Assembly: GCF_024808875.1 (NCBI RefSeq)
Contig: NZ_JANUCT010000017.1
Location: 1 to 54,710 of the forward strand
Reading direction: 5' to 3'
Length of the DNA: 54,710 nucleotides
Source: Methylohalomonas lacus
Lineage (GTDB): Bacteria > Pseudomonadota > Gammaproteobacteria > Methylohalomonadales > Methylohalomonadaceae
Below the pieces are notes generated by a model. The model had not been told where the DNA came from, ran no database searches, and saw only the letters and a program-made list of their open reading frames with translations. A program made the translations under genes and the position numbers. Numbering within the stretch: position 1 is the first letter of the stretch; the number at the start of each line of letters is the position of its first letter. Positions 1 through 18,547 of the stretch are shown here, in pieces.

Positions 1-40
1 GGACCGGGTCGAGCCCGTCGGCTTCAACCCGTTCGCATCA

Positions 41-90
41 AAAGTGTTACCCATGTCCTCGGAATAAAGTGTTACCGATGTGTCCGGTAA
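41..90. repeat. Tandem 25-bp repeat, insertion-sequence-end-like
   Basis: Two consecutive 25-bp units (41-65 and 66-90) both begin AAAGTGTTACC and share ATGT and CGG further in. A related pair lies at 3901-3949. From memory, motifs of the type TGTTACCCATGTCC-CGG occur at the ends of some IS481-like elements, so this may be an IS remnant next to a tRNA gene. No transposase is visible in the window, so the assignment is inference. Confidence 0.5.
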
Positions 91-105
91 GCACCTATGG
101 AGAAA

Positions 106-181
106 TGGTGGGTCGTGTAGGATTCGAACCTACGACCAATGGATTAAAAGTCCACTGCTCTACCGACTGAGCTAACGACCC
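106..181 (-). tRNA. tRNA-Lys (anticodon UUU)
   Basis: The minus strand folds into a complete tRNA. The acceptor stem is GGGTCGT/ACGACCC, the D arm contains AGTCGGTA, the anticodon loop is CTTTTAA with anticodon TTT, and the T arm contains TTCGAAT. The CCA end is encoded (106-108). The 5' end is at 181. An IS-end-like tandem repeat lies immediately downstream and a hairpin array lies immediately upstream. Confidence 0.96.
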
Positions 182-192
182 GTTTTTCTGTC

Positions 193-337
193 GGCAGCGG
201 ACGTCCTGTCCGCTGCCTGATACACTCAGCCCGAAGTGAATTCGGGCTTCGCTTCGCAAAGGCTGAGAGCCTTTGCGCCGTGCCTCCTGCACGGGTGAGC
301 TTTGCGCTACACGAGCTGCTCCGGACGGGCGTCCGGA
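193..337. other. Array of five consecutive hairpins
   Basis: Five perfect inverted repeats follow one another: 193-217 (10-bp stem, 5-nt loop), 229-247 (7-bp, 5-nt), 255-277 (10-bp, 3-nt), 278-294 (6-bp, 5-nt) and 320-337 (7-bp, 4-nt). Read on the minus strand, two loops are AGGAC and AGGAG, which resembles the GGA-in-loop arrangement bound by CsrA/RsmA proteins. The array sits between tRNA-Lys and fmdB and could be a structured RNA on either strand, a leader of the fmdB operon, or a cluster of palindromic repeats. The rest of the gap to 502 shows only two GGTATTTTTG direct repeats near 399 and 418. Confidence 0.6.
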
Positions 338-502
338 CAAGGCGGGGAAGTTTACCCAACTCGAGCGCCGACGAAAACCCGGATTTGCCGCCTGATCGGT
401 ATTTTTGGCGGTTTGCCGGTATTTTTGCCGCCGGCGGGCTTGAAATTCCTCTTGTTGCACCGCATATTCCCTGCATTCTTAAGTATTTATGGGGACTCTA
501 CT

Positions 503-889
503 GTGCCAATTTACGAATATCGTTGTTCCGACTGCGGCCATGAGCTTGAGGCGCTGCAGAAAATCAGCGATCCGAAACTCACCACCTGCCCGCAATGCGG
601 TGCTGAGGCGCTGAGCAAGCTGGTTTCGGCCTCGGCCTTTGTGCTCAAGGGTACGGGCTGGTACGCGACCGATTTCCGCGACAAGGACAAGGGCAGCAAC
701 GCCAAGAGCAAGTCCGCCGGCGAGTCCGGCGACGGCGCCAAGGCGGATGCCGGCGAGTCGAAGTCCGAAAACAAGGCCGACAAGTCGGGCGACAGTAAGC
801 CGGAAAGCAAGACCGATAACAAGAAGTCCGAATCCAGTGACAGCGGCAAGGCCGACAGCAAACCCGCCAAGAAAGCCGCGGCCGAATAG
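503..889 (+). CDS. FmdB-family zinc ribbon protein
   Basis: The 128-residue product starts MPIYEYRCSDCGHE at a GTG codon, the usual FmdB/CxxC_CXXC_SSSS beginning. Two CxxC pairs (CSDC near residue 7 and CPQC near 32) form a zinc ribbon, followed by the family's SAFVLKGTGWY stretch. The remaining half is a low-complexity tail rich in Lys, Ser, Asp and Glu, longer than in many relatives and probably disordered. The family is linked to transcription regulation by name only; its biochemical role is not established. It precedes a DUF502 gene and aspS on the same strand, a common gammaproteobacterial order. Confidence 0.88.
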   Translation: MPIYEYRCSDCGHELEALQKISDPKLTTCPQCGAEALSKLVSASAFVLKGTGWYATDFRDKDKGSNAKSKSAGESGDGAKADAGESKSENKADKSGDSKPESKTDNKKSESSDSGKADSKPAKKAAAE

Positions 890-898
890 CCCCGGTCC

Positions 899-1558
899 AT
901 GTTGTCACTGCGCAAGTATCTGATCGCCGGATTGCTGGTCTGGCTGCCGATCGCCGCCACGGTGTTCATCATCCGGCTGTTTTTGACACTGCTCGACAAC
1001 ATGCTCCTGCTGTTGCCCGCCGCCTGGCGGCCGGAGGCGGTGCTCGGCTTCGAGATCCCCGGCTTCGGCCTGGTGATGGCGGTCGCCATTCTGCTGCTGA
1101 CCGGGGTGTTCGCCGCCAACCTGTTCGGCCGCAAGCTGGTCGACTTCTGGGAGGGGCTGGTCAACCGCATCCCGCTGGTGCGCAGCATCTACGTCAGCGT
1201 TAAGCAGGTCACCGAAACGCTGCTGGCCGACGGCAACCAGTCATTCCGCAAGGCGGTGGCGGTGGAATACCCGCGCAAGGGCATACTCAGTCTCGGTTTC
1301 ATGACCGGCCGCGCGCTGCGCACGGTCAACCGCCAGACGAAGCAACCGCTGGTGTCGGTGTTCATTCCGACGACCCCGAACCCGACCTCTGGTTTCATCA
1401 TCATGGTGCCGGAAGAAGAGGTGCACGACCTCGACATCAGTGTCGAGGAGGCCTTCAAGTACATCATTTCGCTCGGCGTCATCAGTTCCGAGGACAATGG
1501 CGAGGCGGCCGCGCCGCCGCCCGACAGCGTTGCCGGCGCAGACAAACTTGCCAGATAA
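899..1558 (+). CDS. DUF502 family membrane protein
   Basis: This 219-residue protein has two strongly hydrophobic segments near residues 8-30 and 50-75, then a soluble region with the conserved stretches NRIPLVRSIY and VFIPTTPNPTSGF that mark DUF502 proteins. The function of the family is unknown. It is an inner-membrane protein with a cytoplasmic or periplasmic C-terminal domain. It starts 10 bp after fmdB and precedes aspS by 90 bp, so the three are likely transcribed together. The C-terminal tail is rich in Ala and Pro and is probably unstructured. Confidence 0.88.
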   Translation: MLSLRKYLIAGLLVWLPIAATVFIIRLFLTLLDNMLLLLPAAWRPEAVLGFEIPGFGLVMAVAILLLTGVFAANLFGRKLVDFWEGLVNRIPLVRSIYVSVKQVTETLLADGNQSFRKAVAVEYPRKGILSLGFMTGRALRTVNRQTKQPLVSVFIPTTPNPTSGFIIMVPEEEVHDLDISVEEAFKYIISLGVISSEDNGEAAAPPPDSVAGADKLAR

Positions 1559-3958: not shown

Positions 3959-4057
3959 CCCTCCCCCTCGACGGGGGAGGGTCAGGGTGGGGGTGATTGA
4001 ATTATCGAGGCTGTTTAACTCACCCCCATCCGTACCTTCCCCCATCAAGGGGGAAGG
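3959..4057. repeat. Composite palindromic intergenic element
   Basis: Two hairpins flank an inverted core. The left stem CCCTCCCCC/GGGGGAGGG (3959-3981) has loop TCGAC, and the right stem CCTTCCCCC/GGGGGAAGG (4035-4057) has loop ATCAA. Between them GGTGGGGGTGA (about 3986-3996) is nearly complementary to TCACCCCCATCC (about 4020-4031). The design resembles REP/BIME-type elements that lie between genes in many bacteria. No coding capacity is seen in 3872-4264. Confidence 0.7.
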
Positions 4058-17954: not shown

Positions 17955-18547
17955 TCGGCCGCCTGCACGGCGTCATCGTCGAGAAACAGCCGCCGCACCT
18001 GCTCCTAGAGGTCGGCGGCGTCGGCTATGAACTCGAGGCACCGATGACGACCTTTTACGATCTGCCGGAAACCGGCAGCACGGTCACGCTGTTTACCCAC
18101 CTGGTTGTACGCGAGGATGCGCACCTGTTGTTCGCTTTCGGCAGCGAACGCGAGCGCCGCCTGTTCCGGACCCTGCTGAAGGTCAACGGCGTCGGTGCGC
18201 GGCTGGCGCTGGCGATTCTGTCGGGCATGGATGCGGAGGACTTCGCCCGCGTCGTCCACGACAACGACGCCAGTGCGCTGACCCGGCTGCCGGGGGTCGG
18301 CAAGAAGACCGCCGAGCGGCTGATCATGGAAATGCGCGACCGGCTCAAGGACTGGCAGCCGGCAACCGCCAGCGCCGGCAGCCCGGCCGGCGGCACCAGC
18401 GACGACACCAGCAACGACGCCATCAGCGCCCTGATCGCGCTGGGCTACAAACCCCAGGAAGCGAGCAAGTACGTCTATGCGGTGGCCGAACCCGGCATGA
18501 GCAGCGAGGCATTGATCAAGGCGGCCTTGAAGGCTTCCGTTAAATGA
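17951..18547 (+). CDS. ruvA: Holliday junction branch migration protein RuvA
   Basis: RuvA binds four-way junctions and loads RuvB. The 198-residue length, the N-terminal OB domain ([20 protein letters not shown]), two helix-hairpin-helix motifs ([15 protein letters not shown] and [16 protein letters not shown]) and the C-terminal three-helix domain ([15 protein letters not shown]) are all present. It is normally followed directly by ruvB. Here 1.4 kb with repeats and an inverted PfpI gene intervene. A dispersed repeat starts 4 bp after its stop. Confidence 0.97.

Follow-up and report, generated by a model that had tools for sequence, protein, structure and literature searches.

Five perfect hairpins follow one another within 145 nt (positions 193–337) between the tRNA-Lys(UUU) gene and the divergently oriented fmdB gene in the stretch of 54,710 nucleotides from Methylohalomonas lacus that was analysed here and is called the window throughout. 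The array lies beside the tRNA gene and upstream of a conserved fmdB promoter, and two of its loops fit the CsrA consensus; loops of this kind are concentrated near tRNA genes in this genome. Moreover, the orthologous leaders of 2 out of 22 relatives (L038 and L082) are also longer than the others and bear hairpins. The best explanation for these observations is that the array resembles in general type the hairpin-array elements that accompany tRNA genes in many members of the Gammaproteobacteria. As judged from its sequence, our preferred but tentative reading is that it constitutes a hairpin insertion specific to this lineage, situated in the tRNA-Lys(UUU) 5′ leader and read from the minus strand, and that it possibly acts as a small CsrA decoy.

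Structure of the hairpin array

The five hairpins had been described in an earlier note on this DNA and all of them are present, the sole correction being that the second stem comprises 8 bp and not 7. On the minus strand, h1 (193–217) has a perfect stem of 10 bp and an AGGAC loop closed by a C-G pair (CAGGACG); it is separated by 11 nt from the mature 5′ end of the tRNA. It is followed, moving away from the tRNA, by h2 (228–248; perfect 8-bp stem, loop TTCAC), h3 (255–277; perfect 10-bp stem, loop CTC), h4 (278–294; perfect 6-bp stem, C-G closed loop AGGAG) and h5 (320–337; perfect 7-bp stem, loop GCCC). The loops from h1 to h5 thus measure 5, 5, 3, 5 and 4 nt, and the successive spacers 10, 6, 0 and 25 nt, with h4 directly abutting h3.

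The same note had maintained that random GC-rich DNA would rarely yield such a block, and this is borne out: none of 5000 dinucleotide shuffles attained the array's total of 41 stem bp over 145 nt (the best shuffle reached 25), while the runner-up 150-nt cluster in the 854,710 bp of the genome that were scanned (the window plus forty 20-kb stretches) has 27 stem bp. Folded as RNA, the array has z values of -5.4 for the plus and -5.9 for the minus strand, with 0/200 shuffles of equal stability. In the predicted fold of the leader joined to tRNA-Lys, all five hairpins are kept together with the acceptor stem and the cloverleaf helices of the tRNA. Three ORFs run across the array, none of which has a Pfam match.

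The window holds several other features. At the very start of the contig, the sequence AAAGTGTTACCsATGT occurs twice (41–81), a repeat pair reminiscent of an IS481-type end. Two hairpins at 3959–3981 and 4035–4057 (CCCTCCCCC...GGGGGAGGG) are of a type that recurs in the genome (L110 14155, L142 430). A tRNA-SeC gene is located at 18377–18468, and selenocysteine is therefore probably used.

Promoters and leader length at the tRNA-Lys/fmdB locus

The tRNA-Lys(UUU) gene, with its CCA encoded, occupies 106–181 on the minus strand and adjoins the array. On the other side, fmdB, which encodes a zinc-ribbon protein (PF09723), extends on the plus strand from a start at about 503 to 889. The same divergent arrangement is found in RIFCSPLOWO2_12_47_11 (L038), CS3-C001 (L039) and more genomes of one order; a further search of 398 genomes of the phylum revealed no relative that is nearer. 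The fmdB promoter TTGATTTTAT...CCTATTTT, or a near variant of it, is kept in 22 relatives and aligns with TTGAAA-17-CATATT at 440–468 (plus strand) of the window.

This conserved promoter is situated downstream of the array, which therefore is not the leader of fmdB. The earlier note had offered a 5′ leader of the fmdB-aspS transcript as an alternative. The hairpins do fold equally well on the plus strand; however, their position ahead of the promoter at 440–468 makes it highly improbable that they form the plus-strand 5′ leader of an fmdB-DUF502-aspS transcript. A plus-strand sRNA ending at terminator-like sites at 386–419 was also considered and rejected: the stems of these sites are weak (5–6 pairs) and no plus-strand promoter-like site lies upstream of the array.

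Each of the 22 relatives carries TTtACC/TTGCCA-N16/17-GGTATyAT (GGTATGAT in L090) on the minus strand, with a G+C-rich stretch after it; the -10 elements were chosen via a pattern search. The tRNA-Lys promoter inferred for M. lacus (349–377, minus strand) consists of a -35 element TTTTCG at 377–372, a 17-nt spacer and a -10 element TAAACT at 354–349, and then continues with TCCCCGCC. Its placement agrees with that in the relatives, and the distance of 154 nt between the tRNA-Lys -10 and fmdB falls within their range. The matrix score of 1.6 (matrix built without L090 and L080) lies below the 95% null value of 2.7 and is not significant by itself. With the inferred promoter placed at 377–349, the array would fill the tRNA-Lys leader; position and spacing fit this arrangement, while the promoter score is weak.

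The leader, measured from the inferred -10 to tRNA-Lys, spans 167 nt in M. lacus and 33–68 nt in 20 of the 22 relatives, the other two being L038 with 307 nt and L082 with 132 nt (L078 and L083, whose contigs are identical to those of L038 and L039, were left out of the leader tables). Perfect stems account for 41 bp of the long leader here, 38 bp in L038 and 16 bp in L082, values that were reached in 0/1000 shuffles in each case. Among the 20 short leaders, only that of L103 has a perfect stem of at least 6 bp.

GGA loops and CsrA

The minus-strand loops are exactly those to which the earlier note had drawn attention, AGGAC in h1 and AGGAG in h4. In their C-G closed forms, C[AGGAC]G and C[AGGAG]G, both match the sequence of a CsrA site, and a complete CsrA is encoded in this genome. 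The minus strand of the region 182–345 contains five GGA in total, two of them inside loops, and two of the five array loops thus carry the triplet.

C-G closed hairpins with an A(N)GGAN loop and a perfect stem of at least 5 bp are scarce: there are nine in 800 kb of the M. lacus genome, both strands considered. In comparison, the 20 kb that flank its 41 tRNA genes hold five of the same C[A(N)GGAN]G type where 0.23 would be expected. Two of the five belong to the array, one each lies upstream of tRNA-Gln(UUG) and of tRNA-Asn, and one is antisense and downstream of tRNA-Val(GAC); the hairpin at tRNA-Gln(UUG) is counted in both the flank and the genome set. When C-G closed hairpins with loops of 5 or 6 nt are considered, GGA is present in 5/92 in the flanks and in 9/2122 in the genome (Fisher p 0.00017), in a test that was prompted by the array, which itself provides two of the five flank hairpins and leaves three without it. 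Every other triplet occurs at most twice in the flanks. Antisense to and 3′ of tRNA-Val(GAC) (L156, 1415–1490), CCGCACAGGAGGTGCGG forms an h4-like hairpin with two compensatory pairs and precedes a long hairpin with the loop CATGGA.

The earlier note had likened these loops to those of CsrB/RsmY/RsmZ-type RNAs. The presence of GGA in the loops is confirmed at the level of sequence, but an RNA of this type is not supported. No Rfam match is obtained for the array even at E 10. No GacA/UvrY box is found near it either, the three matches in the window to the consensus of this box all lying beyond 31,700. The array has only five GGA, two in loops, and its stems far exceed in length those of most hairpins selected by CsrA (PMC7652899); moreover, there is no minus-strand terminator between the array and the tRNA. 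It is thus very unlikely that the array represents a free-standing sRNA of this type under GacA control, even though CsrA is encoded in the genome and the CAGGACG of h1 corresponds to the CsrB repeat CAGGA(U/A/C)G given in PMC7652899. CsrB/CsrC and RsmX/Y/Z share with the array the presentation of GGA in hairpin loops and the CAGGACG motif, but they display many such loops, whereas the array has two, carried on long stems in what would be a tRNA leader.

PMC7652899 also gives RUACARGGAUGU as the selected CsrA consensus, ascribes 22 GGA to CsrB and states that most hairpins selected by CsrA have four or fewer contiguous pairs. This last feature disfavours tight CsrA binding by hairpins of 10 bp.

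Copies of the array and palindromic repeats

REP/BIME, MITE and similar palindromic repeats form hairpin clusters in intergenic DNA, and the earlier note had named many scattered copies of the block as the sign of a repeat element. The exact sequence of the array is single copy; however, other tRNA sequences of this genome are adjoined by four arrays of the R2 type (see below) and by one more hairpin of the C[AGGAG]G form. No copy of the array exceeds chance-level matches in the rest of the genome or chance in 55 further genomes of the class, where one 29-nt match outside the array was obtained, in G029 (E 7e-4, query 257–285). The multiple copies typical of a REP-type dispersed repeat were thus not found in either search. 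The array is likewise missing from the plasmids and phages searched, and two of its hairpins gave nothing against viral contigs. With window positions 1–900 as query against plasmids, all of the 10 matches listed (out of a result with 382 more records) fall within 26–174, i.e., on the tRNA side. The array resembles REP, BIME and MITE elements in that its hairpins cluster between genes; unlike them, it exists as a single copy, and its tie to other arrays consists of architecture and loop motif.

Hairpins and duplicated tRNA ends upstream of tRNA genes

Perfect stems of at least 7 bp occur in the 60 nt preceding 6/41 tRNA genes of M. lacus, 3/39 of G404, 2/27 of G369 and 3/40 of G034, with 0.5–0.8 expected. 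The idea that pre-tRNA hairpins are unique to M. lacus was dropped, as an excess over shuffles exists in all four genomes tested. The stem preceding the M. lacus tRNA-Cys gene resembles an upstream terminator. Small heptamer repeats occupy tRNA leaders in G404 and G369; in G404, very similar heptamer-type palindromes such as AGCTATTAGCTAATAGCT are located 6–30 nt upstream of tRNA-Phe, tRNA-Lys and tRNA-Pro (L203, L216 and L230).

RNase P cuts the leaders off tRNA precursors, and tRNA leaders should for this reason tolerate inserts. The chief rival explanation sees in the array a palindromic insertion, decayed or composite, that came to lie at a tRNA flank and has no function of its own, which we regard as quite possible. 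It accommodates the excess of pre-tRNA hairpins in 4/4 genomes, the heptamer repeats at the equivalent place in G404 and G369, the unique sequence of the array and the fact that the R2 copies of this genome are mostly devoid of GGA. However, five stems without a single mismatch are unlike the outcome of neutral decay, and the C-G closed consensus has been kept in both GGA loops.

Some tRNA leaders also contain copies of the tRNA itself. In G369, the genome of L038, the first 18 nt of the tRNA are duplicated (≤3 mismatches) 130–228 nt upstream of 11/27 tRNA genes, as opposed to 3/77 control pairings with the leader of another tRNA. Applied to the other genomes, the same criterion yields 3/39 in G404, 1/41 in M. 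lacus and 0/40 in G034. The M. lacus case is tRNA-Met (L146), where a copy of the 5′ end with 0 mismatches lies 191 nt upstream and is followed by several perfect hairpins. Upstream of its tRNA-Phe gene (L160) there are two tandem repeats of ~103 nt, each of which begins with the first 10 nt of the tRNA. The tRNA-Lys 5′ end has no such copy, the best match having 7 mismatches in 18.

Two families of hairpin elements at tRNA genes

R1 is a structured element that separates a duplicated tRNA 5′ end from the intact tRNA; its hairpins covary and its GGA loops are invariant. Alignment A1 (9 elements) has 26 pairs, 18 of them compensatory, and alignment A2 (7 elements) has 27 pairs, of which 14 show compensatory change, together with invariant GGA in two loops. 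Both exclude the tRNA-Phe and tRNA-Ala elements, the first copies at tRNA-Arg and tRNA-Asn and the T-loop type at tRNA-Gly(CCC); A2 further excludes the tRNA-Met and tRNA-Cys elements. The R1 model derived from A2 matches 16/53 genomes of that order, and 14 of the 28 distinct loci that were fetched (L305 and L315 being left out as repeats) have a tRNA at most 100 nt downstream on the same strand. R1 loci include L038, L191, L204, L215, L270 and L271, and tandem copies are present in G389 and G388. In L038, the covarying R1 element occupies the orthologous tRNA-Lys leader, the same place as the array in M. lacus.

R2 is an RNA element of four hairpins (hpA-hpB-hpC-hpD) that emerged from a scan for GGA hairpins directly abutting another hairpin. 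Alignment A4 contains 12 copies, none from M. lacus and with one second copy of L275 excluded, and has 22 pairs, 15 of which are compensatory. The R2 model matches at least 163/369 gammaproteobacterial genomes with E 0.001 or better; as only 13 candidates were scored per genome, this figure is a lower bound. In 42 distinct copies from 30 fetched loci (L318–L347), 97.6% of cells pair, compensatory changes affect 20/22 pairs and the covariation score is 0.609, compared with 0.172 for shuffled and ≤0.078 for slid alignments; this alignment, which was fitted to the model, is biased in its favour. GGA is present in loop A of 41 and loop D of 39 of these copies, and in loops B and C of 5 and 3, respectively. 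Loop D is mainly a C-G closed ANGGAN, often C-ARGGAU-G, which is the core of the CsrA consensus.

A tRNA gene or piece lies within ~250 nt of 16/30 R2 loci, and 14/30 have none. The sequence TCGA directly precedes 18/43 copies, in 11 cases as a T-loop-like TTCGA, and several copies interrupt a 3′ tRNA copy in the form GGTTCGA[R2]ATCC...CCA. Of the 14 cases in which a neighbouring tRNA gene or long tRNA piece sets a direction, R2 shares its strand in only 10, which weighs against our preferred reading of the array. M. lacus itself has four R2-type copies (E 0.0013 or better), each at a tRNA 3′ piece (tRNA-Thr, -Leu, -Arg and -Gln), in which GGA has mostly been lost. A scan of six loci with R1 and R2 copies found no Rfam family for either element, the lines below threshold being unconvincing. 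In the literature, no title, abstract or sequence string matched R1 or R2, in a search that left most subscription journals uncovered and so is not proof of unpublished status.

Relationship of the array to R1 and R2

The R1 model does not match the array. The R2 model gives 6.2 bits in an unfiltered search and R3, a model made from A5, gives 9.9 bits (E 0.79, rank seventh in the window), neither of which is significant. The order of the array is nevertheless R2-like: h4 with its GGA abuts h3, a GCGA linker leads to h2, and GAGTnnnTCA leads to h1 with the second GGA. When the GGA loops of h4 and h1 are set against loops A and D of R2, the counterpart of hairpin D is ambiguous.

Genuine but diverged membership of the array in R2 would be compatible with the best explanation, and we consider it rather unlikely. 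The unbiased scan from which R2 emerged picked up the array beside the R2 copies, the unfiltered R2 search aligns it according to the shared order of hairpins and linkers, and the core of h1, GGACAGGACGTCC, is similar to hpD of L197, GGACAGGATGTCC. However, the model scores are at background, R3 favours a different alignment of the array, and no tRNA piece marks its border. Since R1 misses the array, R2 and R3 score low and a tRNA-Lys piece is lacking at the border, only a likeness of place and loops is claimed here and not membership. R1 and R2, for which the models were made in this work, resemble the array in lying beside tRNA genes and in having adjacent hairpins and GGA loops, but neither model detects the array at a significant score, and homology to R2 is thus not proven by the models.

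A putative CsrA decoy released from a tRNA precursor

If the array is indeed an insertion in the tRNA-Lys leader with a role as decoy, it would be transcribed from the predicted tRNA-Lys promoter together with the tRNA, and RNase P would then free a stable RNA of ~160 nt. The two C[AGGAN]G loops may bind CsrA and could hold one CsrA dimer, in which case the freed RNA would be a small decoy for CsrA whose supply is coupled to tRNA synthesis. A parallel is provided by 3′ETS-leuZ, a tRNA-precursor spacer that works as an sRNA sponge (Lalaouna 2015, as cited in PMC8383071). Both would be non-tRNA parts of a tRNA precursor that titrate a regulator. However, 3′ETS-leuZ is a 3′ spacer with an sRNA target, whereas the array would be a 5′ spacer with a protein target and a putative function.

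In its broadest and most speculative form, which we deem unlikely, the proposal is that the Gammaproteobacteria possess a class of mobile or formerly mobile, tRNA-targeted RNA elements with paired CsrA-binding hairpins, which would be co-transcribed with a tRNA, released by processing and couple the titration of CsrA to tRNA synthesis; the array would then be a diverged example in a tRNA leader. Should GGA-loop arrays at tRNA genes indeed bind CsrA, very many Gammaproteobacteria would possess a large set of decoys of the Csr system that are linked to tRNA transcription and have so far gone unlisted. Leaving CsrA aside, R2 covaries as an RNA element, occurs in at least 163/369 genomes, had no match in the Rfam scans of this work and marks tRNA genes as preferred landing sites.
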